NCBI GenBank assembly: GCA_002707525.1
Contig: PAND01000025.1
Span: 1-58,766 of the forward strand
Direction: 5' to 3'
DNA length: 58,766 nucleotides
From: Flavobacteriales bacterium
GTDB lineage: Bacteria; Bacteroidota; Bacteroidia; Flavobacteriales; Schleiferiaceae
Of the stretch, positions 18,680 to 56,606 are shown one piece after another; the stretch's first letter is position 1, and every line of letters starts with the position of its first letter. Under the pieces are notes generated by a model, which was given only the letters and a program-made list of their open reading frames with translations, made no database searches and had not been told where the DNA came from. The position numbers and the translations under genes are program-made.

Positions 18680-20846
18680 AAATCTGTACTTCGTCTAAAA
18701 AATGCCAAACTCGCTGTCCAGCAGCGGGATGATTAATAGCTAGGCGTTCTGTATTAGGAATTTCAAAATGAATGGAATTGGTAGGTGAAAAACCTCCCGT
18801 TGGGGCCAAAGTCATGGTGTGAATAAATGTTCCTTCTTCTTCAACACTCACGTCTCTATCCCAATGGTATCGTTCAATGACATCACTTTGCACATAAATA
18901 TCTGTATACACTACTTCAGGGATTAGGATCCAGCTCAAGCGACTCTGAAGGAAATTAATTTTCACAGAATCAATGATATACTTTTCCTTCCATTCAAAGT
19001 GGCCGCTAAAAAAATCCGGACCAAAATAACCCAGCCAATTTCCGTCTCTAAAATTAGTAGAACCAAGTACGCCATTAGCTAAAGAAATATCCGGTGTCCC
19101 ACTATAAGGTGGCGTTGGCGGTGAGGTCAAACAACTATGCGTCAACAATCCTTGGTGCAGCGCAAAATCATATTCTAAAAGCGGCCCCATAGGCCTATCA
19201 TCCCTTTTAGGCTGAACGGACACGCTATGTGCTCCGGCATCAATAAAGCGTACTCTATTCCCTATAACAACACCCGTAGAAGACTGTACATCTATTTCTA
19301 GATTTTCAAATGCCGGATTAGCTATAACATGAAGTTCTATTTCATCTTCAGTACTCTTATTATAAGATTGAAGGTCCACTGGAACCTGCTCCACATCATA
19401 ACTATACCCCATAGCCTCTAACAAGGAGTAGTGCTGCTGCAATCGATTCCAAAATGCCTCATAATTTCGCTCCTGAGGATACGACCAAAGGACTTCTGCC
19501 ATGGCAAGGCCACGAGGTAAAAAACGTCGGTCTAAGGTTTCTATATTTGGGATACGTTCCGACCATAAGTTGCATTCACCACCAAGAATATGTTCGCTAA
19601 GCATAGGATCAAGATCTTGCGGAACAGGATCATAAGCGTATACCTTGGGTACATCAATACTACTTATGGGATAATCAAAATAAGCATGTGATGTTGGGCT
19701 CATTATTGCATCATGACCCTGCTCTGCAGCCTGAATACCGCCTTCAAAGCCTCGCCAACTTTGAACCGTTGCATTCGGACTCAAACCACCTTCTAAAATT
19801 TCATCCCAACCAATGATCTGTTTACCTTTTGTGGCTACATAATCCTCAATTCGGATATTGAACCAACTTTGAAGCTCCTCCTCCGTTTTAAGGCCCTCAT
19901 TCTTTATTCGCTGTTGACACTTTGCACAGTGCTCCCAGCGGTATTTCGGAGCCTCATCCCCTCCTATATGGATATATTTTGAAGGGAATATTTCACATAC
20001 ATAATCAAGCACATCCTCTAAAAATTCAAAAGTATGCTCATTACCAGCACAATAGATGTCTTTGAATACGCCCCATTCTGTGGCTACTTCCAAGGGCTTA
20101 CCCGTGCATCCTAATTCTGGATAAGCGGCTATAGCAGCTTGACTATGTCCAGGCAATTCAATCTCTGGAATAATCTCAATACCTAATCCTCTAGCATGCG
20201 CCACTACATCTTCTAACTGTTCACGACTATATGATCCACCATAAACGCTGTCTCCATACATTCGAAAAGCGGCCACCTCTGCCAACTTAGGGTACTTATC
20301 CATCGCAATGCGCCAGCCTTGATCTTCAGTAAGATGCCAATGGAATACATTAAATTTATAAAGCGCCATGATATCCAATTGTCTTTTGACTTCTTCCACT
20401 GTAAAAAAATGACGACAGACATCTAACAGTACGCCGCGATGACGGAAAGCAGGACGGTCATCGATACGACCGTAGGGTAGCTTTGCCCCTTCAGTAGTTA
20501 GACGAGTCAATTGGAATAACGTAGCTCTAGCATGATGGTCACCATTGGGGCCATAAGTGATTTGAACACCATCACCATCTGATACAATGAAGTACTGCTC
20601 TGAAGCTAGCGTAGAGTCAAATTCCATCTCCCAATCACCCTCTTTGGGCGATAGATAATTATACCCAACGGAATCGTATAAACTATGCATAGTAACCGCG
20701 GGAATGACTCCATTGATATCTGCCCAGGATAACTCCCGTTCATTAAAATCGGACACAGACCTCGTAAAAAGAACTACCAGCACACTAATTATCACGGCAA
20801 ATACACCGGTCAACCAACGCCGTTTTTGCCTATTTCTTACTCCCAT
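18657..20846 (-). CDS. Beta-N-acetylhexosaminidase, GH20
   Basis: A 729-residue GH20 enzyme that removes terminal beta-linked N-acetylhexosamines. An N-terminal signal-anchor helix (WLTGVFAVIISVLVVLFT) places it in the periplasm. A GH20b-like domain follows, then the catalytic TIM barrel from about residue 130 with RGVLLDVCRHF, FNVFHWHLTEDQGWR and the catalytic pair Asp297-Glu298 in HIGGDEAPK. The C-terminal about 200 residues form a discoidin-like beta module ending in FLDEVQIYG, similar in layout to the end of the neighbouring GH92 protein. It overlaps the upstream glycosylasparaginase by 10 bp and the downstream cutC by 23 bp, so the three are one operon. Confidence 0.95.
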   Translation of the reverse strand: MGVRNRQKRRWLTGVFAVIISVLVVLFTRSVSDFNERELSWADINGVIPAVTMHSLYDSVGYNYLSPKEGDWEMEFDSTLASEQYFIVSDGDGVQITYGPNGDHHARATLFQLTRLTTEGAKLPYGRIDDRPAFRHRGVLLDVCRHFFTVEEVKRQLDIMALYKFNVFHWHLTEDQGWRIAMDKYPKLAEVAAFRMYGDSVYGGSYSREQLEDVVAHARGLGIEIIPEIELPGHSQAAIAAYPELGCTGKPLEVATEWGVFKDIYCAGNEHTFEFLEDVLDYVCEIFPSKYIHIGGDEAPKYRWEHCAKCQQRIKNEGLKTEEELQSWFNIRIEDYVATKGKQIIGWDEILEGGLSPNATVQSWRGFEGGIQAAEQGHDAIMSPTSHAYFDYPISSIDVPKVYAYDPVPQDLDPMLSEHILGGECNLWSERIPNIETLDRRFLPRGLAMAEVLWSYPQERNYEAFWNRLQQHYSLLEAMGYSYDVEQVPVDLQSYNKSTEDEIELHVIANPAFENLEIDVQSSTGVVIGNRVRFIDAGAHSVSVQPKRDDRPMGPLLEYDFALHQGLLTHSCLTSPPTPPYSGTPDISLANGVLGSTNFRDGNWLGYFGPDFFSGHFEWKEKYIIDSVKINFLQSRLSWILIPEVVYTDIYVQSDVIERYHWDRDVSVEEEGTFIHTMTLAPTGGFSPTNSIHFEIPNTERLAINHPAAGQRVWHFLDEVQIYGRPYRN

Positions 20847-45577: not shown

Positions 45578-46420
45578 TTACGACCACTTTTCCAAACGAA
45601 AGTCTGGAAATGATTTCTTCAAATCAAGGCCCACTCCTGCATGATTAGTCTTGAATGCTTGAAGAACTCCCGCATCGTCTTCATCATCAAGCACGCGACC
45701 TCCACTATTCATTTTCATGTAAATCGGCAGTAACAGGCGTTGAATGAAATGCGGAATTAAAGGCTGAATCCTCAAGCCCAGTTGATGCAATACGCCACTG
45801 CGAATCGCCACACTTTCATTGCGATGCTCAAAATTGAAACTCTCATAAAAGGATGAATCTATTTCCAAGTATTCAGCTATTTCTTTCATCACCTCTTCCT
45901 TTCGGGACATGAGATCTTCAAAGGCCCATATGCGGACATGATTCTTTGGCATTGCATTCACCCATTTTTTCAAATAAAACGCATAATTCACATACTTCTC
46001 AATTTTGGGTAATTCAATGTATTGTTCCAAATTCATGTCAACGGTCTTGGTACGGAACTTCTCCATCTTGTAATGGCTGTACATCTGCTTTGAAGGCTCA
46101 CGAAATAAAAAAATCATCTTCGGAGGTTGTTCAGATTGAGAAAAAGCTTTGAGTGCCTCTTCCTCATATAGGTAGTGAGCTGTTGCTTCAAAACGAATAG
46201 CGGCATTTGCGCCGTCCTTGAAGAATTCATGGTACCTACTAAGGTCGTGTTCATGAACATTTGCAGATGCATTGAATCTATTTACCTTATCCGCGAAAAA
46301 GAACGTCTCTTTTTTTGGAGACCCATATACCTCTGGGTGCGCACTAAGCCAAAAATATAGACTACTTGTACCGCATTTTGGGGCACCACCTATGATGAGA
46401 TTTGGAAAATGCTCTATCAT
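45578..46420 (-). CDS. Sulfotransferase family protein (1)
   Basis: A 280-residue PAPS-dependent sulfotransferase of the glycan type. The 5'-phosphosulfate loop GGAPKCGTSSLYFWLSAHPEV lies at the N-terminus, followed by a KKETFFF segment with a conserved Lys/Glu. The 3'-phosphate motif MIFLFREPSKQMYSHYK has the expected Arg and Ser. It would move sulfate from PAPS to a hydroxyl or amino group of a sugar. Its ATG shares a base with the stop of the upstream sulfotransferase gene (TAATG), so the two are coupled. It is the last gene of the glpF-led minus-strand operon. Confidence 0.9.
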   Translation of the reverse strand: MIEHFPNLIIGGAPKCGTSSLYFWLSAHPEVYGSPKKETFFFADKVNRFNASANVHEHDLSRYHEFFKDGANAAIRFEATAHYLYEEEALKAFSQSEQPPKMIFLFREPSKQMYSHYKMEKFRTKTVDMNLEQYIELPKIEKYVNYAFYLKKWVNAMPKNHVRIWAFEDLMSRKEEVMKEIAEYLEIDSSFYESFNFEHRNESVAIRSGVLHQLGLRIQPLIPHFIQRLLLPIYMKMNSGGRVLDDEDDAGVLQAFKTNHAGVGLDLKKSFPDFRLEKWS

Positions 46421-47412
46421 TATTCGGGCCTGATTTTCAACTGTTGCAGTGAATCGTTTATGAACGCATAGTCTTTTGTATGCTTGGACAACGCAAGGTC
46501 AATGGCCCCAACCTCATCTTTGCTCAACTGACTTTTCCATTTCTCTAAAGGATTCCCCTTAGTCGTAGTATTGACCAATACCGTTGCCTTTTCTGCAATT
46601 TCGCAAGCCACTCTATGATGAGCCTGCCTAAGGTTTAAGGCATCAAAAAGAGCCAAAAGTGTCCCTCTCTGATTAGCAACCAGGTCTTCATAACTAACTA
46701 CTATCTTTTGGTGAAAACTAGCGTCATTGAGCTCTTTAAAGGCCAATGTATTCATGCGTATCCAAAGCTCAGGAATAATAGAGAAGTTGCCTGGAAAAGA
46801 GGGCTTTCCTTCAGGTACTTCACCATACGATTGGCTGTAGCAAGCCTCTGGGTTGTCTTCCATGAAGTATGTTCTACCATCCGCTTGGTGCAGCTTTTCA
46901 AAGTGATACTTCATAGAAGCCGAATGACTGTAAATATCTCGTACAATCAGAATCAGCGTACTCTTAGGAAACAAAGCACCCACGTAACCGAGTTTGTTCA
47001 TCAAATGTGGGCTTTTATTTACCGGGATAATGTGGTCCCAATCATAGGAGGCCCTGCCCAATCCATGAAAATATTTTGAATATCTCCGCATAGCTTTTCG
47101 CTTCACGCTGCGAGATTCATAAATGAAATTGGCAAAATATGCCGTCATCTGGTACGTGTATTCAGCGGATGCATCTGCTGCGTCTTTATGGTCACAAGTT
47201 TCCTTAATGGATGCACCGCCAATGTCTGTCCAAACTTGATTGAGTTCAACACCAATTTTTAATAATTGAGGATGTGTACTTAATTTATCTACTAGAAATG
47301 TAGTACCCGAACGCATACTACCGGTTACAAAAAGTGGCGCATTTGTAATTTGAGCATTGGGCTCACCGTGAGTACCAAAAAGATTTCTTAACGATTCGGG
47401 AAGCTTAATCAT
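46420..47412 (-). CDS. Sulfotransferase family protein (2)
   Basis: A 330-residue sulfotransferase-like protein. PAPS loop FVTGSMRSGTTFLVDKLSTHPQL at about residue 28, 3'-phosphate motif STLILIVRDIYSHSASMKYHFEK, and a C-terminal KIVVSYEDLVANQRGTLLALF helix. It differs from its neighbours enough to suggest a different acceptor. It overlaps the upstream aminotransferase gene by 4 bp (ATGA) and the downstream sulfotransferase by 1 bp. Confidence 0.88.
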   Translation of the reverse strand: MIKLPESLRNLFGTHGEPNAQITNAPLFVTGSMRSGTTFLVDKLSTHPQLLKIGVELNQVWTDIGGASIKETCDHKDAADASAEYTYQMTAYFANFIYESRSVKRKAMRRYSKYFHGLGRASYDWDHIIPVNKSPHLMNKLGYVGALFPKSTLILIVRDIYSHSASMKYHFEKLHQADGRTYFMEDNPEACYSQSYGEVPEGKPSFPGNFSIIPELWIRMNTLAFKELNDASFHQKIVVSYEDLVANQRGTLLALFDALNLRQAHHRVACEIAEKATVLVNTTTKGNPLEKWKSQLSKDEVGAIDLALSKHTKDYAFINDSLQQLKIRPE

Positions 47413-48542
47413 GATCTGAATTCATTGCATAGTCGCACGACTTCTTCTATTACACGATTGATTTTGTCATCTTCTAAACCAAAATAAAGCGGTAAACAAA
47501 GAATGGAGGTTGAAATTGTTGCGGCGTTTGGAGTCTTTCCTGGTTGAACAATGTAAGGCAGTGTATTAAGCGCAGGATAGAAGTATCTGCGCGCATAAAT
47601 CCCAGAAGCTTCAAGACCATCAAGCACATAAAGGGTCTCTTCTTCACCTTTAAATACCACAGGATAATAACTTTTATTCCAATCTATATTTTCTGCTATT
47701 TCCGGTTTGATTAATGTCAAAGCTGCTAATCCTTGATTATAGCGATCATGCTGCCGTTCCCTATCCGCTATTATTTCTTCTGCATAGCGCAGGTTTACCA
47801 GTCCAATGGCTGCATGAATTTCACTATTCTTGGCATTAATTCCCACTCCGTCAAAAACTTCCGGCCCAAAGTGACCAAAGTTTCTCAATCGATTAACAGT
47901 ATAACGCAAAGGAGATACTGGTTCAGTAAGCCCTTCTAATTTATTGGAAGAATCATTGACAAAAATTGCTCCACCTTCCACGCTGTGCATAAGCTTGGTG
48001 GCGTGAAGGGAAAGCGTGCTAAGGTCGCCGTAATTCAATATTGAACTACCATTTATTTTAGTTCCAAAACAATGCGCTGCATCATAAATCACCTTCAAGT
48101 GATGTTTTTTGGCAATGCGCTCAATAGACTCCACATCGCAAGGCACTCCAAAAACATGCGTTGCTAATATAGCTGTAGTCTTTTCTGTGATTGCAGATTC
48201 AATTTGTGTGGGATCTATATTGAACGTATTTGCATCTATATCTACAAATACGGGAGTACAACCCTCCCAGACAATAGTTGAGGTGGTAGCCACATAAGAA
48301 AAGGGGGTTGTGATTACCTCACCTTTGATTCCCAATGCTTGAAGGGCAACTTGAATGGCTGCGGTTCCGTTACTCACAACAGCGCAATCTTTAGTGCCTA
48401 AGTAAGCATTCAAACCAGCTTCAAATTCTTTGAGAAGTGGTCCATTATTCGTAAGCCATTGGGCATCCCAAGCACGCTGCATTTCTGAAGTAATCTCTTC
48501 AAAGGGAGCCTGAAATGGTTTTGTGACGAGTATTTTCGACAT
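47409..48542 (-). CDS. DegT/DnrJ/EryC1/StrS family sugar aminotransferase
   Basis: A 377-residue PLP enzyme that aminates keto-sugar nucleotides. The N-terminus VTKPFQAPFEEI... WLTNNGPLLKEFEAGL resembles WecE/VioA-type enzymes that make dTDP-4-amino-4,6-dideoxy sugars. VSNGTAAIQVALQALGI, VITTPFSYVATTSTIVWEG, YDAAHCFGT with the PLP Asp, and LSLHATKLMHSVEGGAIF with the Schiff-base Lys are intact. A 4-amino-dideoxy sugar would fit the Fuc4NAc-transferase-like gene in the opposite arm. Exact substrate specificity is inferred. Confidence 0.9.
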   Translation of the reverse strand: MSKILVTKPFQAPFEEITSEMQRAWDAQWLTNNGPLLKEFEAGLNAYLGTKDCAVVSNGTAAIQVALQALGIKGEVITTPFSYVATTSTIVWEGCTPVFVDIDANTFNIDPTQIESAITEKTTAILATHVFGVPCDVESIERIAKKHHLKVIYDAAHCFGTKINGSSILNYGDLSTLSLHATKLMHSVEGGAIFVNDSSNKLEGLTEPVSPLRYTVNRLRNFGHFGPEVFDGVGINAKNSEIHAAIGLVNLRYAEEIIADRERQHDRYNQGLAALTLIKPEIAENIDWNKSYYPVVFKGEEETLYVLDGLEASGIYARRYFYPALNTLPYIVQPGKTPNAATISTSILCLPLYFGLEDDKINRVIEEVVRLCNEFRS

Positions 48543-48567
48543 AAGACAAAGCTAATTGCTTTTAGAA

Positions 48568-49983
48568 TTAAATACGCTTACGCACTAAGATAAAACCAAC
48601 GACTAAACCTATTACTATAACGGCATTGGTTAATATGAAATCCATAGTGCTAGGCCCACTTAACTTTTTAGCAAGTAAAAAGGTGGGAAGCGCAATACAA
48701 ACTAATCTAAGTTGGACTGTTGAAAATGGTTGCATATTCTCTTTTAAGTAGAGATAAACAGCTTTTGCACTGTTGAATACCGCATAAGAAATGACCAAGG
48801 CATAACCGGCGCCATCTAAACCGTGTTTTGGAATCAGCACATAATTGAGCCCAATTAATAATGCAACTAACCCGGAAATAGCCAACAGATTCCATTTAAA
48901 ATAAGGCCCATTCGAAAGCAACTCGCCATTCGAACCAAAACTGTAATCAATCACTCGTGAGAAAAGGACTAATACCACTACAGATTTAGCATCTTCGAAT
49001 CGCTCAGGATGAGGTATCATGCTAAATATGATTTCAATATTTGGAACAATAAGGAGAAAACTAACCAAGGCCACAGCCATCAATACTCTAGAAGTACGCC
49101 CGTACATTTTCGCAATTGCATCCGTGTTGCCCTCATTCCAAAGATTAGCAAACTGTGGAGACAGTGCTTGAGAAACTGGCCGGCGTATGCCGTCCACAAA
49201 ACTCCCTATAAAAAATGCAATACTATAAATTCCAAGTGCCTCGTAGCTCATCAAAGAAACAATCATTTGACTATCAATAGTAGCAAGGCTCATGGTCATT
49301 ACCGCCATGATAACTCCGCTTCCAGCAAAAGTGGCCAATTCCTGACCCAGTCCTTTATTTAACGGTTTAGGTTTACGCAACGGAATCCCCTTTAGCAATA
49401 GACTATAGGCTAAAACTCCCAATCCAACGCATACATGCACAAGGGCAAAAATCCGCATCCAAAAAGAGAAATCCAGTTGATCTTTACTCACTAAATAGGC
49501 GCTGATTAAAAGTGCCAGTCGAATTCCCACGTTTTTCATGAAAAACGGAACGGAAATACGCTTCGCACTTGATGCGATGGAGAGGCCAAGCGTGTAAGTC
49601 ATACTTCCCGCTATAACTGCTCCAAGAATAAAGATTTCATCTGCAATAGGAACATCTAATAGCGAAGCTAGTCTACCAGCAAACAAGGAAAAACCAATAC
49701 CTGAAACCCCTGCTACAGCAGCTACTATAACTACAATATTTGATAAAAACTGACTGGCCTCTTCGCCCTGAAATTGGCTTTGATACCTAACATAGGTTCT
49801 GTGCATTCCCAATAAAGCTATGGCAGCAATAAGAACAGCGGTTCGTTCTACCCATCTATAAATCCCTAATTCTTCAAGGGTAAATGCTAGAGGGAACAAC
49901 CAAATATTATTAAGCACGCCTAGACCAATTCCTAAAAAATTGGACAATGAACCTTTGATTATCTGCCGCTTAAAAACACTCAC
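48568..49983 (-). CDS. Polysaccharide flippase (Wzx/MATE-like membrane protein)
   Basis: A protein of about 471 residues with 12 or more hydrophobic segments, of the polysaccharide biosynthesis/flippase type. It starts MSVFKRQIIKGSLSNFLGIGLGVLNNIWLFPL; the N-terminal pattern and helix spacing fit Wzx proteins that flip lipid-linked oligosaccharides. The GTG at 49983 is preferred: it overlaps the glpF stop by one base (TAGTG), while the longer reading from 50061 lies wholly inside glpF and lacks a membrane-protein-like start. It shares an operon with glpF upstream and the aminotransferase 25 bp downstream. Confidence 0.85.
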   Translation of the reverse strand: MSVFKRQIIKGSLSNFLGIGLGVLNNIWLFPLAFTLEELGIYRWVERTAVLIAAIALLGMHRTYVRYQSQFQGEEASQFLSNIVVIVAAVAGVSGIGFSLFAGRLASLLDVPIADEIFILGAVIAGSMTYTLGLSIASSAKRISVPFFMKNVGIRLALLISAYLVSKDQLDFSFWMRIFALVHVCVGLGVLAYSLLLKGIPLRKPKPLNKGLGQELATFAGSGVIMAVMTMSLATIDSQMIVSLMSYEALGIYSIAFFIGSFVDGIRRPVSQALSPQFANLWNEGNTDAIAKMYGRTSRVLMAVALVSFLLIVPNIEIIFSMIPHPERFEDAKSVVVLVLFSRVIDYSFGSNGELLSNGPYFKWNLLAISGLVALLIGLNYVLIPKHGLDGAGYALVISYAVFNSAKAVYLYLKENMQPFSTVQLRLVCIALPTFLLAKKLSGPSTMDFILTNAVIVIGLVVGFILVRKRI

Positions 49984-50732
49984 TATACCGTAGTCAATAA
50001 TAGTTCTTTGATATAGTAAGCCAGTGCACCGCCGCATAGCGGACCAGCAATCGGTATCCAAGCATAAGACCAGTCTGAATCAATTTTATTTTTAATAGGC
50101 AATAATTGATGCATAATACGCGGTCCTAAATCACGTGCAGGATTGATTGCGTATCCAGTGGTCCCTCCCAATCCAAGACCAATAACCCAAACTAAAAGCC
50201 CCACCGGTAATGCACCAATGCTTCCAAGCCCCACAGGCACCTCTTGACCATCTAGCTCAAAAGCACCGTCAGAAATGTAAAAGATCACGAACATCAATAC
50301 AAAAGCACCTATGGTTTCACTAAAGAAATTATTCCAAGAGTTTTTAATCACCGGTGCCGTACAGAACGTTCCCCGAATTGCAGCACCATCCTTGGTAAGG
50401 TCATAATGTGGCTTATAGAAAATATAATTCAACGTGGTGCCTGCCGCTGCACCTAAAAGTTGTGCCAACATATACACACCCACCTTTGACTCCTCTAAAG
50501 CTCCATCAAGCCATAAAGAAAGCGTTACTACCGGGTTTAAATGTGCCCCACTATAAGGACCTGCTACAACAATACCAATGTATACTGCTAATCCCCAAGC
50601 TGTTGTTATCATCACCCAAGAACCTGGGTCACCTGAACCTTTAGTTCTTTTTAATTCCACATTAGCAACAACTCCATTCCCTATAAATAAAAGCAAGAGT
50701 GTCCCAATAAATTCAGCCCAAAATTCACTCAT
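49983..50732 (-). CDS. glpF: Glycerol facilitator (MIP/aquaglyceroporin)
   Basis: A 249-residue channel with six membrane helices and two half-helices. The first pore motif is SGAHLNPVVTLS (NPV in place of NPA) and the second is GYAINPARDLGPRIMH. The Asp after NPAR marks glycerol facilitators rather than water-only channels. It would admit glycerol for the kinase encoded divergently, 106 bp away. It is the first gene of a minus-strand operon running into the glycan genes, and its stop overlaps the flippase start. Confidence 0.93.
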   Translation of the reverse strand: MSEFWAEFIGTLLLLFIGNGVVANVELKRTKGSGDPGSWVMITTAWGLAVYIGIVVAGPYSGAHLNPVVTLSLWLDGALEESKVGVYMLAQLLGAAAGTTLNYIFYKPHYDLTKDGAAIRGTFCTAPVIKNSWNNFFSETIGAFVLMFVIFYISDGAFELDGQEVPVGLGSIGALPVGLLVWVIGLGLGGTTGYAINPARDLGPRIMHQLLPIKNKIDSDWSYAWIPIAGPLCGGALAYYIKELLLTTV

Positions 50733-50744
50733 ACATAATCCTTT

Positions 50745-50757
50745 TCACGACGCGTGA
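50745..50757. promoter_or_regulatory. Inverted repeat between glpF and glpK, possible operator
   Basis: TCACG-ACG-CGTGA is a perfect 5-bp inverted repeat with a 3-nt spacer in the 106-bp divergent region, 12 bp before the glpF ATG. A dimeric regulator could bind it. It could also arise by chance. Confidence 0.25.
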
Positions 50758-50838
50758 CAAGATAAGTATTTCTCCTATCGCTTTCTCTTTCCTTCCCTGC
50801 ATTCTGATTATCTTAAAGGCAAGTAATTCTTAGACATT

Positions 50839-52335
50839 ATGGTCCCTTATATTCTCGCAATTGATGCAGGTACAACGTCATCACGTGCTATAGTATTTGA
50901 TAAAGACACAAAAAAAATAGGCCTTGGTCAATTTGAGTTTTCTCAATACTTCCCTAAAAATTCGTGGGTTGAGCATGATCCCAATGAAATATGGGCCTCG
51001 CAGCAAAAAGCCATTTCTTCAGCGCTGAAAGCAGCAAAAATCAATTCCAATGAGGTCTCTGCGATTGGAATTACTAACCAGCGCGAAACAACTATAGTAT
51101 GGGACCGACGCAGTGGTGAACCCATTTATAATGCTATTGTTTGGCAAGACAGACGCACCTCTGATTATTGCAGTTCATTTTCTGAAGCTTCCATTAATCA
51201 GGTTGCAAAAAAAACAGGTCTCATAGTGGACGCCTATTTTTCAGCAAGTAAAATAAGATGGATTCTTCAACATGTGGAAGGAGCCCAAGACAGAGCAATT
51301 CGCGGAGAACTATGCTTTGGAACTGTAGATTCGTGGCTTATTCATAAGCTCACAGGGGGGTCAAAACACATCACAGATGCTTCAAATGCAAGTCGCACAA
51401 TGCTGTACAATATTCATAGTGGAACTTGGGACAAGAGACTCTGTGATCTATTTAATATCCCTATATCTATTCTACCAGAAGTGGTCAATAGCAGTGGATA
51501 TTTGGCAAGCACAGATCAAGAGGTGTTTGGCGCTAAAATTCCCATATCTGGTATTGCAGGTGATCAACAAAGTGCGCTATTTGGTCAGCTTTGCTTCAGT
51601 TCAGGAGAAGCTAAAAACACCTACGGTACAGGTTGCTTCGCTATGACAAATACGGGAAACCATATTGTAGTCAGCAGCAATAAAATGCTCAGCACGGTAG
51701 CTTGGCAACTTAACGGCATACGCACGTATGCCTTGGAAGGTTCTGTATATGTTGCCGGATCCCTTATTCAATGGCTTCGTGACGGCTTGGGCTTCTTTGA
51801 TCATAGTGCGGATGTTGAACAGTTAGCCCTTAAAGAAGGGACAAGTGGAGGGATAACCATTGTTCCTGCTCTCACCGGACTCGGAGCACCACATTGGGAC
51901 AGCTATGCTCGAGGCGCAATTATGGGGATTACGCGTGGGACAAATACCTCCCATATAGCCTATGCTTCATTAGAAGCAATTGCACTTAGTACAGCGGATG
52001 TTTTAGAGGCTATGGCAAAGGACTTAGGACAACCTTTGAAATCTATTCGAGTAGATGGCGGTGCAAGTACCAATGATACACTTATGCAGATTCAAAGCGA
52101 CCTTTTAAATTGTCCCGTAATCCGACCGTTGGAAACAGAAAGTACGGCACTCGGGGCAGCATTACTAGCCGGGCTCGGAATAGGCATATGGAAATCAATT
52201 GGTGAATTAAAAGACCTAGCAGTAATTGATCAGAAATTCTCTCCAAAGAATGGCTCATTCGCCTCACTCCGTAATCAATGGAACAAGGGAATTCAATCAA
52301 CCAAGGGGTGGGCCGAACCGGGCAACTACGAATAA
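50839..52335 (+). CDS. glpK: Glycerol kinase
   Basis: A 498-residue FGGY-family kinase that makes sn-glycerol-3-phosphate. The N-terminal ATP-binding start ILAIDAGTTSSRAIVFDKD, the substrate segment IGITNQRETTIVWDRRSGEPIYNAIVWQDRR, the second-domain signature GGITIVPALTGLGAPHWDSYARGAIMG and SIRVDGGASTNDTLMQIQSDLL are intact. The length is typical. It is divergent from glpF and heads the plus-strand arm of the glycan cluster. The next gene follows after 47 bp. Confidence 0.97.
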   Translation: MVPYILAIDAGTTSSRAIVFDKDTKKIGLGQFEFSQYFPKNSWVEHDPNEIWASQQKAISSALKAAKINSNEVSAIGITNQRETTIVWDRRSGEPIYNAIVWQDRRTSDYCSSFSEASINQVAKKTGLIVDAYFSASKIRWILQHVEGAQDRAIRGELCFGTVDSWLIHKLTGGSKHITDASNASRTMLYNIHSGTWDKRLCDLFNIPISILPEVVNSSGYLASTDQEVFGAKIPISGIAGDQQSALFGQLCFSSGEAKNTYGTGCFAMTNTGNHIVVSSNKMLSTVAWQLNGIRTYALEGSVYVAGSLIQWLRDGLGFFDHSADVEQLALKEGTSGGITIVPALTGLGAPHWDSYARGAIMGITRGTNTSHIAYASLEAIALSTADVLEAMAKDLGQPLKSIRVDGGASTNDTLMQIQSDLLNCPVIRPLETESTALGAALLAGLGIGIWKSIGELKDLAVIDQKFSPKNGSFASLRNQWNKGIQSTKGWAEPGNYE

Positions 52336-52368
52336 AGGAAAAGTAGAGAAGTATTGACAACTAGACCT

Positions 52369-52376
52369 TACATTTG
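52369..52376 (+). promoter_or_regulatory. -7 promoter-like element before sulfotransferase (3)
   Basis: TACATTTG matches the -7 consensus exactly but ends only 6 bp before the ATG at 52383, implying an almost leaderless transcript if used. A normally placed -33 element is not seen, so use is doubtful. Confidence 0.25.
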
Positions 52377-52382
52377 AATACT

Positions 52383-53234
52383 ATGAAATTCTGCTTCATT
52401 CTTGGCAATCCACGCAGCGGAACATCCCTGTTCCGATTAATGCTCAATGCTCATCCACAGATTGTGGCACCTCCTGAATGTGGATTCATTCAATGGAATT
52501 TTTCCGCGTTCGGCAGGGTAGATTTCAGCTCTTCAAAAAATCGTGTTGCATTCGCCAAAGCAGTTTTAGAAAGCAAAAAAATGGAAACGTGGGGTTTGAC
52601 TACGGATGACCTCATAAATACCTTTGATCAGGTAGTCGCACCCAATTATAAGCGTATGGTTAAAGCTGTGTTTTACGCCTATTCTAAATCAAAGGGGAAG
52701 AACAAAGATCCTAAGGTTGCTATTGATAAGAATAACTATTATCTGAATTTCCTTGAGGATATTTCAAGCGCAATGCCTAATGCAAAATATGTCCACCTGG
52801 TGCGAGATATTAGAGATGTGGCAAACTCGTATTTAGATATTGAAAAGAAGAACTTAAAGGGGAAATATGCTCCAAGTTTAGAAACCAGCGCAGAACAAAT
52901 AGCTGGAAAATGGACAAAGAATAATGAGCGCTTATTGACCTTTTTAGATGATAAACCCACGCTGGTGGTGCGCTACGAAGATTTGTTGATTCGCCCAAAA
53001 CAAGAACTAGAAAGAGTAGCGCTTTTCTTAGGTCTTTCGTATGATGAGCGTATGAGGCAATTCTATGAATACAATGACGAACCTGAAGAAATGCTCAATT
53101 GGAAGCAAAAAACCCTTCAACCTATTGACCCCAGTAGAGCCGGCGCCTTCAGAAGAGAGCTAGACCCCCATTTTAGTGACCAGCTATGGAACTTATCTCA
53201 TGCGACTTTAGAAAAATTCGGTTATTCCAAATAG
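52383..53234 (+). CDS. Sulfotransferase family protein (3)
   Basis: A 283-residue sulfotransferase. The PAPS loop is FILGNPRSGTSLFRLMLNAHPQI, right at the N-terminus. The 3'-phosphate motif is AKYVHLVRDIRDVANSYLD, and TLVVRYEDLLIRPKQELERVALFLGL is the usual C-terminal helix region. The ATG at 52383 is preferred to an in-frame TTG at 52374. The acceptor is unknown; the context suggests a surface glycan precursor. One base separates it from the next gene. Confidence 0.9.
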   Translation: MKFCFILGNPRSGTSLFRLMLNAHPQIVAPPECGFIQWNFSAFGRVDFSSSKNRVAFAKAVLESKKMETWGLTTDDLINTFDQVVAPNYKRMVKAVFYAYSKSKGKNKDPKVAIDKNNYYLNFLEDISSAMPNAKYVHLVRDIRDVANSYLDIEKKNLKGKYAPSLETSAEQIAGKWTKNNERLLTFLDDKPTLVVRYEDLLIRPKQELERVALFLGLSYDERMRQFYEYNDEPEEMLNWKQKTLQPIDPSRAGAFRRELDPHFSDQLWNLSHATLEKFGYSK

Positions 53235-53235
53235 T

Positions 53236-54351
53236 ATGTATGTCCACCTGATTAATGACGAAAAGTTTTTACCGCCATTTATTAAAAGGGCACAAGCAGT
53301 ATTGGACAATAATCTTTATATCGTTTTTGGTTCAAAACCACCCTTTACATTTCTTCAAGAAAGCCAACAGGTCATTCATTCCTCTGAATGGTTAGACTAC
53401 CAATTCCAGCATGAGATTGAAATAGAACGCATTTATATTCACTTGATGACCTACCAGAAAATCAATTGGGTAAATACCGCTCCTAAAGCTCCCGTCTATT
53501 GGCTATTTTACGGTAATGATCTCTATGAACTTCTTCTAGCTTTCAAGGGCTTCAAGCTGTTTGAAATATTGGATGCTCCTAAAGGCATCTTAACACGAAT
53601 CAAAGGGGAAACCCTCTTGAGTAGAGTCAGGCGCTGGGCTCAATTGAAAGCGTATAACCGGCATTATGCCCCCTTTGTACAATCCCATGTGGACTACTGG
53701 TGTTTCTGGAGTCCAGGAGATTTGAAGCTTCTTGTGGAGCACTATCAATTCCAGGGAGAAATGTTGAAATTTCAATACGGTGCATTCAATCCAGAAGACA
53801 TTGAGGTAGTTCAACAGTGGGTGGGCGCTAACCCTGATTTTCGCTCAGAAGATATTTTATTGAACCACAGCGGTTCACAAAGCGGAAATCACAAGCACTT
53901 ATTGGCTCTACTTGATGAGTTAGGAATCAATCAGTCAATAAGAACTCCGCTGAGCTATGGAGACAAACCGCATATTGAAGCTACGTTAGAATTTGGTCAA
54001 AAAGTTCTTGGCACGGCCTTCCAACCGATTCTAAATTACATGGACCGTAACGCATATTTTGAACTCATTTGCACTACGGGATATGCACTATTTGGTCACA
54101 GAAGACAAGAAGCAGGAAACACCCTGTTTATTGCATTAATGAGTGGAACTAAAGTTTTCTTGCACCCCGAAAGTGTACTTCTCCCTTTCCTGGAAGAGCA
54201 AGGATATTGCTTTTTTACTTGGAATGACCTGAGCGCTGAGGCACTGAGCACTCCATTATCCAAAAAAGAACGCGCTAAAAATTACACCCTTGCCTGCAGC
54301 CAATTCTCCGAACAGACTATCGCAGAAAACTACCAGAGGATTCTTAGTTAA
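53236..54351 (+). CDS. WecF-like 4-acetamido-4,6-dideoxygalactose (Fuc4NAc) transferase
   Basis: A 371-residue glycosyltransferase resembling the family of WecF (GT56), which moves Fuc4NAc from TDP to a lipid-linked glycan in enterobacterial common antigen. The pattern matches are YVHLINDEKFLPPFI at the start, KAPVYWLFYGNDLYELL, and the acceptor/donor segment ILLNHSGSQSGNHKHLLALL, followed by YGDKPHIEATLEFG and GNTLFIALMSGTKVFLHPES. The assignment is by overall resemblance, so the donor sugar is inferred. It shares a base with the MBOAT gene start. Confidence 0.8.
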   Translation: MYVHLINDEKFLPPFIKRAQAVLDNNLYIVFGSKPPFTFLQESQQVIHSSEWLDYQFQHEIEIERIYIHLMTYQKINWVNTAPKAPVYWLFYGNDLYELLLAFKGFKLFEILDAPKGILTRIKGETLLSRVRRWAQLKAYNRHYAPFVQSHVDYWCFWSPGDLKLLVEHYQFQGEMLKFQYGAFNPEDIEVVQQWVGANPDFRSEDILLNHSGSQSGNHKHLLALLDELGINQSIRTPLSYGDKPHIEATLEFGQKVLGTAFQPILNYMDRNAYFELICTTGYALFGHRRQEAGNTLFIALMSGTKVFLHPESVLLPFLEEQGYCFFTWNDLSAEALSTPLSKKERAKNYTLACSQFSEQTIAENYQRILS

Positions 54352-55769
54352 TGCTGTTCAATTCGCTCTCATTCGCCGTTTTTTTACCCATTGTATTCGC
54401 AATATACTGGGCGCTGAGGAATTCATTGCGCTATCAAAATATCATGCTCCTGCTGGCGTCTTATTTTTTTTACGGTTGGTGGGACGTAAGATTCTTAGGC
54501 CTTATAGTTGCATCCACTGTGGTCGATTATTTGCTTGGACAACATCTAGCAACTGCCACTAAAGTCTCTAAGCGTAAACTTTTGCTTACCGCAAGTATGC
54601 TTTTTAACCTAGGACTTCTTGGCGTGTTCAAATACTACAATTTCTTTATAGGCAATTTTACGGAGATTGCTAATAGCATTGGATTCCATACGAACCCTAT
54701 TCTTTTAAAAATAGCCTTACCGGTAGGTATTTCTTTCTACACCTTTCAAACTATGTCCTATACCATTGACATCTATAGAAAGCAACTAGAACCTACCAAG
54801 GACTTCATAGCCTTTGCAGCATTTGTTGGCTACTTTCCGCAGCTCGTTGCTGGACCCATTGAAAGGGCCTCAAACCTACTTCCTCAAATTTCCACAAACA
54901 GGTCTTTTAATTATCAGAAAGCTGTGGATGGCATGCGGCAAGCTCTTTGGGGATTTTTCAAAAAAGTGGTCATTGCAGACGCGGTAGCTCCATTAGTTGA
55001 TCAAGTATTTAGTGATCCTAACGGTTTTAGTTCCATTGCTTTAATTACCGGAGCATTATTATTCTCCGTACAGATATATTGTGATTTTTCCGGCTACTCA
55101 GATATTGCCATAGGGGTCTCCAAACTCTTCGGAATAGATTTAATGCAGAATTTTAAAACACCTTACTTTTCAAGAGACATTGCCGAATTTTGGCGTCGCT
55201 GGCACATTTCATTGAGTACTTGGTTCAGAGATTATTTATACATCCCATTGGGGGGCTCACGCGGGTCCACTGCATTTAAGGTCAGGAATACATTTGCCAT
55301 ATTTCTAGTCTCTGGTTTTTGGCATGGTGCCAATTGGACATTCATCATTTGGGGTCTCATTAATGCACTGCTCTTTCTTCCGCTCCTTCTTGCCAAACGC
55401 AACAGAAGTAACTTAAATGATCCAAAAATTCGAGACTTACATAGAATACTTCTTACTTTTTCAATTACCACTATAGCTTGGATTTTTTTCCGTGCCGAAT
55501 CTCTTTCCCATGCCATAGATTATATCCAAAATATCACCCAATTAAATACCGGAAAGGCGCTATCAATCAAACCCTCTCTAATGGTATACATAGCCCTATT
55601 ATTCTCCGGTGATTGGATTGGACGCAAACACGATTTTGCGCTTAATTTCCTTAGTAAAGGAGTCCTTGCAAAGTCTTTCTTACTTAGACTAATAGTTTAC
55701 CTAAGTCTAGCCTACTTGATTTTGCTCTACATTGGCGGACAGCAGAGCTTTATTTATTTTCAGTTCTAG
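54351..55769 (+). CDS. MBOAT family membrane O-acyltransferase (AlgI/DltB-like)
   Basis: A 472-residue protein with many membrane helices. The MBOAT signatures are FFYGWWDVRFLGLIV near the start, ALPVGISFYTFQTMSYTIDIYR, GYFPQLVAGPIERA, FSGYSDIAIGVSKLFGI, FWRRWHISLSTWFRDYLYIPLGGSR and the catalytic His in VSGFWHGANWTFIIWGL. Such proteins pass acyl (often acetyl) groups across the membrane for modification of alginate, teichoic acids or peptidoglycan. It overlaps the previous gene by 1 bp, and the SGNH-like partner follows after 3 bp. Confidence 0.93.
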   Translation: MLFNSLSFAVFLPIVFAIYWALRNSLRYQNIMLLLASYFFYGWWDVRFLGLIVASTVVDYLLGQHLATATKVSKRKLLLTASMLFNLGLLGVFKYYNFFIGNFTEIANSIGFHTNPILLKIALPVGISFYTFQTMSYTIDIYRKQLEPTKDFIAFAAFVGYFPQLVAGPIERASNLLPQISTNRSFNYQKAVDGMRQALWGFFKKVVIADAVAPLVDQVFSDPNGFSSIALITGALLFSVQIYCDFSGYSDIAIGVSKLFGIDLMQNFKTPYFSRDIAEFWRRWHISLSTWFRDYLYIPLGGSRGSTAFKVRNTFAIFLVSGFWHGANWTFIIWGLINALLFLPLLLAKRNRSNLNDPKIRDLHRILLTFSITTIAWIFFRAESLSHAIDYIQNITQLNTGKALSIKPSLMVYIALLFSGDWIGRKHDFALNFLSKGVLAKSFLLRLIVYLSLAYLILLYIGGQQSFIYFQF

Positions 55770-55772
55770 TTT

Positions 55773-56606
55773 ATGCGTCAGTTCATTTTTAGATTTTCAT
55801 TGGTCTCCATATTACTTGCTACGGCGATTGGACTATTAGTTGCTTTTAATTATTGGCGTAGCCTTTCATTCATAGCCAAACACCAAGGAGGCACAATTAT
55901 TTTGGGCGATAGCCACGCCGCAACAAATATGTGTCCTGACATCCTTGACGCACAGAACTTTGCCCATACGGCAGAACCTCTTGTGGCAACTTCACAGAAG
56001 CTGGAATGGATTGCCAAAAAGCTCCATCCAGACACCATTCTATTAGTGCTTAGCCCAAATAACTTTGCGGGATATAACGATTTCAAATTTTCAGATTCTC
56101 AATGGTCTTCAGAAATGGCAAAGCGATACTATACGTTATTTCCAAGGTCTTTCTGGGCACAGAATACCAACCCATTAACTGCTCAGGGACATTCCTACAG
56201 ACAACAGCTTCTGCCCAATCTATCTGGCCGTCCTACTTTTCTTGGAAAATTTACACCTAAACCCATTCATGGCAGAAAAAATGATCTCCTAAACACATTA
56301 GACAGGCATTTTAATCCGGAATACCCTACAGTCTCTCTTCCTTCTGAATTAGCCATTCAAAACATAACCAAGACCTGTGAACGCAGCGGCATAACGCTAT
56401 TAGTTGTGCTCGCTCCTCTTCTTCCGGAATACAAATCAGCCATTCCCGTTCAAGTCCAACAGGTGTTTAATGCTACCATTGAAAATCTTGAGGTTATCAC
56501 CACAAACATAAAATTACCTGACAGCGCATATTTTAATGCAGATCATCTGAATCTAAACGGCGCCAATACTTTTACAAAGGCAATACAAACGGCGCTAGCC
56601 CATTAA
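55773..56606 (+). CDS. Membrane-anchored SGNH-like protein, probable MBOAT acyltransfer partner
   Basis: A 277-residue protein with an N-terminal membrane helix (FSLVSILLATAIGLLVAF). It has an SGNH-hydrolase layout: block I TIILGDSHAATNM with the candidate nucleophile Ser, a LLVVLAPLLPE strand, and the C-terminal YFNADHLNLNGAN holding the candidate Asp-His pair. AlgX/AlgJ- and PatB-type proteins with this arrangement complete O-acetylation together with an MBOAT protein. Its position 3 bp after one supports that role. Specific chemistry is inferred. A strong terminator follows. Confidence 0.8.
   Translation: MRQFIFRFSLVSILLATAIGLLVAFNYWRSLSFIAKHQGGTIILGDSHAATNMCPDILDAQNFAHTAEPLVATSQKLEWIAKKLHPDTILLVLSPNNFAGYNDFKFSDSQWSSEMAKRYYTLFPRSFWAQNTNPLTAQGHSYRQQLLPNLSGRPTFLGKFTPKPIHGRKNDLLNTLDRHFNPEYPTVSLPSELAIQNITKTCERSGITLLVVLAPLLPEYKSAIPVQVQQVFNATIENLEVITTNIKLPDSAYFNADHLNLNGANTFTKAIQTALAH

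Follow-up and report, generated by a model that had tools for sequence, protein, structure and literature searches.

We describe a locus in a Flavobacteriales bacterium of the family Schleiferiaceae in which two glycerol genes, glpF and glpK, lie back to back amid genes for a surface glycan that is probably sulfated and acylated, judging from the protein families concerned. The window, that is, the whole stretch of DNA analysed, measures 58,766 nucleotides (contig PAND01000025.1 of assembly GCA_002707525.1, numbered C21 here) and belongs to a 2.1-Mb genome that is 91% complete (G000). The cluster spans positions 45578-56606 and consists of ten open reading frames (ORFs), the identity, order and strands of which, according to the ORF table, Pfam and NCBIfam, are those proposed in an earlier note on this DNA.

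The arm on the minus strand begins with glpF (49983..50732), which encodes an aquaglyceroporin (MIP channel; 156 bits in Pfam). It is followed by a gene for a Wzx/MATE-like flippase (48568..49983), the start of which was corrected to the GTG at 49983. This protein has some 11 hydrophobic segments and scores 22.4-22.6 bits against MatE, below the cut-off of 24.9, while its orthologue in the related genome G011 clears Polysacc_synt_3 (31.9 bits, cut-off 23). The arm continues with a DegT-family sugar aminotransferase (47409..48542; PF01041, 298 bits), closest to DesI-type 4-aminotransferases, and with two sulfotransferases, ST_B (46420..47412; Sulfotransfer_3), with the loop RSGTT, and ST_A (45578..46420), the core gene of the locus. 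ST_A carries the 3'-phosphoadenosine 5'-phosphosulfate (PAPS) loop PKCGTSS, and its nearest solved structures are a sulfotransferase (3rnl) and a heparan N-sulfotransferase (1nst).

The arm on the plus strand starts with the glycerol kinase gene glpK (50839..52335; FGGY kinase domains; TIGR01311 at 670 bits, cut-off 590), followed by the third sulfotransferase, ST_C (52383..53234; Sulfotransfer_3, loop RSGTS), for which the ATG at 52383 is a more likely start than the TTG at 52374. All three sulfotransferases are backed by Pfam (PF13469/PF00685). Then comes a remote WecF-like glycosyltransferase (53236..54351), which scores 104.8 bits against NF002756, below its cut-off of 457, and has no Pfam match; its profile found a single match among PDB sequences, at E 0.34, and two distant ones on plasmids (28-30% identity), and its AlphaFold model (mean predicted local distance difference test score, pLDDT, of 42) was not used. 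The last two genes encode an MBOAT acyltransferase (54351..55769; Pfam 116 bits), the nearest solved relative of which is DltB, and an SGNH-like protein (55773..56606) that has a single hydrophobic helix at its N-terminus and the motifs GDSH and ADH. The latter has no family match at E 0.001. For its AlphaFold model (mean pLDDT 80), each of the ten best PDB matches is a DltD chain, but the matches are weak throughout, with E between 2.6e-3 and 4.3e-2 and a TM-score of 0.43 or less. No mobile-element families are among the family matches of the cluster proteins, and a PHROGs search with six of the ten gave one weak match, for ST_C. Elsewhere in the window, ARAGORN calls a selenocysteine tRNA at 20547-20640, probably falsely, within an ORF of 729 amino acids on the same strand.

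Glycan cassettes and the glycerol module across the genus

The locus was compared in 25 genomes of the genus, including G000, and could be read in 22 of them; in G015 and G019 it stops at contig ends, and G018 offers neither a yqeY nor an ST_A orthologue as anchor. ST_A orthologues with at least 64% identity occur in all the other 24 (G000 included, several partial). The adjacency on which the earlier note had remarked extends to these relatives, with glpF standing beside glycan genes in 16 of the 22 readable genomes, 14 of which also have glpK. Across these 16, three different glycan cassettes occur beside glpF. Type 1, the window's own, is found in G000, G003, G007, G011, G012 and G020 (G007 was typed on its minus arm and glpK only, and G020, split across two contigs, by its plus arm); type 2 in G004, G009, G017 and G021; and type 3 with glp genes in G005, G006, G008, G010, G014 and G022 (G006 was typed from glpD and its neighbours alone, the contig stopping inside glpD, and G014 is partial). 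Another six genomes (G001, G002, G013, G016, G023 and G024) have a type-3 cassette and no match to glpF, glpK or glpD, and the remaining three are those with unreadable loci.

Every cassette encodes sulfotransferases, a flippase and a single glycosyltransferase of WecF-like, GT2 or GT4 type, and a 2OG-Fe(II) oxygenase is also present in type 2. The flippases of types 2 and 3, which have no significant Pfam match of their own, were assigned by 33-40% identity to that of the window, and the WecF-like gene is confined to five of the 25 genomes, every one of type 1. The yqeY-endonuclease-ST_A flank is common to types 1 and 2 wherever the contig reaches, and an LTD gene marks the far flank in three genomes of type 1 (G000, G003, G020) and three of type 2 (G004, G009, G017), while the far-flank ORF of G021 has no LTD match; type 3 shares the endonuclease-ST_A side and has a different far flank. 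In types 2 and 3 the glycerol genes are flanked by ST_A on one side and the flippase gene on the other; type 1 differs in that three genes (flippase, DegT and ST_B) separate glpF from ST_A. In the six glp-less genomes, ST_A is directly divergent from the type-3 flippase gene (ST_A is only partly on the contig in G023, and the cassette of G002 is split or cut by contig ends).

The glycerol genes seem to have been lost in a graded manner. Among the 25 genomes, glpF is present in 16, glpK above its cut-off in 14 and glpD (PF16901) in six, so that they are missing from nine, 11 and 19, respectively. Two genomes have glpF without glpK (G003, G014) and eight have glpK without glpD (G000, G004, G005, G007, G010, G011, G012, G020), and none has glpK without glpF or glpD without glpK. 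In all six glpD genomes that gene directly follows glpK, which is the ordinary glycerol-utilisation set. No glpD match was found in the window genome or in any other of the six type-1 genomes, and the window thus holds a reduced glpFKD module, in which GlpF and an adjacent GlpK occur with no GlpD match.

Outside the genus, the usual arrangement is different. When named genomes were scanned with an alignment of glpF, 367 loci were found, of which 80 were kept (65 non-genus, 15 genus). In 54 of the 65 non-genus loci the order is glpD-glpK-glpF on one strand, in one it is glpK-glpD-glpF, and ten have no match for one or both partners. The same three genes thus make up this Bacteroidota operon and the set found in six congeners; unlike in the operon, glpF is here divergent from glpK-glpD, with glpD, and sometimes glpK and glpF, lost. 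Sulfotransferase, flippase, DegT and MBOAT profiles, which were built on the genus and would miss distant families, matched near none of the 65 non-genus glpF genes at E 1e-6 (flanks of up to 10 kb each side, shorter at contig ends). In other genera of the same family, glpF was found in three of 12 genomes, only 28-33% identical, with no further match to window proteins nearby. One of the 15 genus loci is on a contig titled Planktomarina sp. (L104), which carries genus-type glpF, glpK and ST_A-type genes and is probably misbinned; on it, a flippase-profile fragment converges on glpK, which is another gene arrangement. As a separate observation on the channel itself, the first NPA motif of GlpF reads NPV in eight of the 14 genus ORFs scored (NPA in the other six), and valine stands at that position in two of 60 outside ORFs scored; a changed GlpF selectivity is possible.

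Direct traces of the losses were found by aligning intergenic gaps across loci. Four loci bear scars: (i) in G003, the glpF-side gap and the last glpK codons are kept and run into the ST_C leader, (ii) in G005, a 141-base piece contains the end of glpD, (iii) in G014, the first glpK codons are fused to the end of glpD and (iv) in G004, the start and end of glpD remain. The glycan genes are intact beside all four. No scar was seen in the gaps of the glp-less loci, in G010 or in the glpK-ST_C gap of type 1 (tested in G012), and the idea that type 1 once had glpD comes from types 2 and 3 alone.

In a midpoint-rooted tree of concatenated ST_A, endonuclease and YqeY from 23 genomes, with ultrafast bootstrap support, the glp-less genomes fall into a single clade (81), which lies next to the glp-bearing G010 (95) and is nested within type 3. 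G007, of type 1, clusters with type 2 in this tree (97) and in that of glpF (99). The glpK tree is poorly supported around G007 and joins G004 to G000 and G012 (100); some recombination is therefore likely. These trees also indicate that cassettes have been swapped between species while glpF stayed in place.

Our preferred interpretation, which we hold with considerable confidence, is that this is an exchangeable surface-glycan locus of a known kind in which a separate and shrinking glycerol module is embedded. The kind in question corresponds to the replacement flexible genomic islands of aquatic bacteria, defined in PMC4033161 and linked there to phage recognition. The likeness lies in different gene sets of like function occupying one chromosomal place between shared neighbours, in the presence of surface polysaccharide genes and in mobile-element families being unmatched here. 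The locus differs in that species of a genus are compared rather than strains of one species, that its variable part encloses a metabolic glp module which is undergoing loss in its own right, and that type 3 shares only one flank with the window.

Neighbourhood, overlaps and regulation

The glycerol and glycan genes look like neighbours rather than parts of a single pathway, because the glp-less relatives keep the glycan cluster. The earlier note had instead proposed that glycerol uptake is coupled to glycan assembly through gene overlap, which it regarded as the unusual part. On such a reading the glycan would draw on glycerol or glycerol-3-phosphate provided by GlpF and GlpK, and the flippase overlap would synchronise expression. 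The overlap itself is real: the stop of glpF and the GTG of the flippase gene share one base within TAGTG (49981-49985), and the further 4-bp and 1-bp overlaps and the 25-bp gap downstream are also as reported. TAGTG is kept in G000, G003, G007 and G012, and this conservation, the adjacency in 16 of 22 readable genomes, the absence of glpD from all type-1 genomes and the constraint on glpF in G003 and G014, which have no glpK (see below), all speak for coupling. However, G011 does without the overlap, and overlaps are also present at 13 of the 26 same-strand junctions outside the cluster, in a gene list picked by hand from the window ORF table. Translational coupling was rejected as a special feature, overlaps being equally common elsewhere in the window. 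The type-3 cassette persists in six of 22 genomes with no glp match, scars at four more loci lie beside intact glycan genes, and G003, of type 1, has lost glpK with its cassette intact. Furthermore, the glpD of six genomes indicates catabolism, the CDP-glycerol glycerophosphotransferase family PF04464 was not found in the 25 genomes, and a promoter-like box lies 3' of glpK. Taken together, we regard functional coupling as very improbable.

That box belongs to a set of matches to TAnnTTTG, which we take to be the Bacteroidota -7 consensus. In the window, one (TAGCTTTG, 48547..48554, minus strand) precedes DegT and another (TACATTTG, 52369..52376, plus strand) lies between glpK and ST_C; none was seen before glpF or glpK. 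Among type-1 loci, the box before ST_C reads TACATTTG in three of five (G000, G012, G003) and TATCTTTG in G011, and has one mismatch in G020. TAnnTTTG also precedes the type-3 flippase gene in ten of ten loci examined, with or without glp genes, against a chance expectation of about 0.03 per stretch examined. In six of these ten, the longest-ORF start of the flippase overlaps the box, which implies that the true start lies further in. This suggests that the plus-arm glycan genes start from a predicted promoter of their own.

These boxes bear on another possibility, which is that no chemistry is shared and that each glycan arm is expressed in part from the divergent glpF/glpK promoter, glycerol supply or a regulator setting the level of glycan. 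The glpF-flippase overlap in type 1 is compatible with this, as are the deletions in G003 and G014, which bring the retained glpF-side gap directly before a glycan gene, and an inverted repeat, TCACG-N3-CGTGA (50745..50757), in the divergent glpF/glpK gap. The repeat has no other copy in the window, and three of 100 shuffles contain one. Of eight loci compared, however, only G000 and G012 have it (G003 with one mismatch), and it was not seen in G007, G011, G020, G009 and G022. Since promoter-like boxes precede ST_C and the type-3 flippase gene, and the glp-less clade manages without the module, we consider such co-regulation unlikely.

Several observations nevertheless weigh against a glycerol module that is separate from the glycan genes, or against parts of this picture. 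Wherever glpF is found it sits at the glycan locus (16 of 16), and all six type-1 genomes retain it, adjoining the flippase gene in the five in which that side could be read; type 1 without glpF was never seen, and without glpK once (G003). Dispensability is thus direct for type 3, and in type 1 for glpK only. The ratio of nonsynonymous to synonymous substitution rates (dN/dS) of glpF after loss of glpK is 0.075 for G003-G012 and 0.052 for G014-G005, pairwise values that also span the time preceding the loss; it is 0.019-0.065 in pairs excluding G003 and G014, and for the flippase gene it is 0.113 and 0.049 in the same two pairs (overall 0.028-0.113). From these figures glpF seems to be still useful where glpK is gone, and some link to the glycan is possible. 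TAnnTTTG precedes the flippase gene in none of three type-2 loci examined. The genus genomes are mostly metagenome-assembled, one per species, and many are incomplete. Finally, APS (adenosine 5'-phosphosulfate) kinase, encoded by cysC, was not found in the window genome although sulfation needs PAPS.

Because glpF stays under purifying selection near the flippase gene or ST_A after the loss of glpK and glpD, one might suppose that type-1 and related glycan systems have co-opted GlpF, which would pass glycerol or another small solute that ends in, or balances, the glycan, with the overlap tying GlpF to the flippase. We give this reading, for which the constraint on glpF is the chief argument, only a very slim chance.

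Glycan chemistry and sulfate supply

The prediction that this is a glycan cluster bearing genes for sulfotransferases and for acylation of the DltB/DltD kind is borne out by Pfam, by DltB as nearest relative of the MBOAT protein and, weakly, by DltD for the SGNH protein. As in the DltB/DltD pair, an MBOAT protein nearest DltB is accompanied by an SGNH fold nearest DltD (weakly), and, unlike in these systems, the ten genes include neither DltA nor DltC. The WecE/WecF route to Fuc4NAc that the earlier note had proposed, the pathway type of the enterobacterial common antigen, found no support, neither equivalog exceeding its cut-off. The DegT protein scores 246 bits against DesI, 189 against PseC and 178 and 160 against two WecE-type models (cut-offs 375 and 434.85), all below cut-off. 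The solved structure most similar to it is 2po3 (210 bits; named a '4-dehydrase'), which we take to be DesI; perosamine synthases come next, and the best chain named dTDP-4-amino-4,6-dideoxygalactose transaminase (4piw) reaches 94.5 bits. A WecE identity was rejected on these scores. Since DegT is nearest DesI and 2po3 is its best solved relative, the sugar made by the putative DegT route is more plausibly 4-amino-4,6-dideoxyglucose than Fuc4N.

The product had also been called a polymer with possible glycerol-phosphate input. None of the ten genes was recognised as encoding a polymerase or an initiating transferase, and the product could therefore be a short glycolipid or a polymer. A teichoic-like glycerol-phosphate polymer was rejected, PF04464 being found in none of the 25 genomes and in three of 14 control genomes. 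Near a contig end of G000 (C18:96000-108509, L096) there is a further cluster of glycan type, in which two or more sulfotransferase genes occur.

APS kinase was matched in six of the 25 genomes and not in the other 19, including that of the window. In five of the six, a second polysaccharide island holds cysC next to cysD, with a gene that was read as cysN by its sequence or its length; in G013, all that was found is a fragment of cysC where a contig ends. The island, which is variable, also carries an SLC13-like transporter. The contig that bears it holds cysH as well in G003 and G016, and G001 shows a partial cysH match. The other 19 genomes have no cysD-type match by score bands (cysN was not searched for), and Sat-type ATP sulfurylase was matched in none of the 25. 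As further observations, eleven genomes have a CysH-type match with neither a cysD-type nor a Sat-type ATP sulfurylase match, and in the window genome CysH and PAPS-loop sulfotransferases occur without a cysC match.

These missing enzymes would be explained if the sulfotransferase-fold proteins were PAPS-independent or idle in the window species, leaving the product unsulfated. We think this distinctly unlikely, as the PAPS-loop motifs are intact in ST_A, ST_B and ST_C, and cysC, mostly with cysD beside it, is present in relatives. Moreover, the matching island of the window genome starts at the end of contig C16, among genes read as glycosyltransferases; the absence of cysC is therefore not proved, and an assembly gap may explain the missing PAPS synthesis genes. 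For comparison, a cluster for a sulfated capsule in Vibrio sp. KMM 8419 (PMC11641403) carries the PAPS synthesis genes cysNDC, which are called a hallmark there. The window cluster resembles it in combining sulfotransferase, glycosyltransferase and transport genes, and is unlike it in having no cysNDC. No described glp-glycan cluster, nor any paper combining Schleiferiaceae with sulfotransferase, was found in the titles and abstracts of the literature searched, most subscription journals being outside its scope.

From the families represented, the locus might work as follows. The original module would have consisted of glpF, glpK and glpD and is now shrinking, the window retaining the first two. 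GlpF and GlpK would convert glycerol to glycerol-3-phosphate, mainly for phospholipids, because no GlpD was found. In parallel, and with the plus-arm glycan genes probably transcribed from their own promoter, DegT would produce a nucleotide-linked 4-amino-4,6-dideoxy sugar that the WecF-like enzyme would put onto a lipid carrier and the flippase would carry across the membrane, the MBOAT-SGNH pair adding acyl groups and the three sulfotransferases sulfate.

The findings have three implications. The source of PAPS in these bacteria is a testable question that the locus raises. A striking gene neighbourhood has been tested by natural knock-outs, that is, by relatives that have lost glp genes, some with readable scars, and that retain the glycan genes. 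Lastly, an exchangeable and probably sulfated glycan locus is now described in uncultured marine Flavobacteriales.

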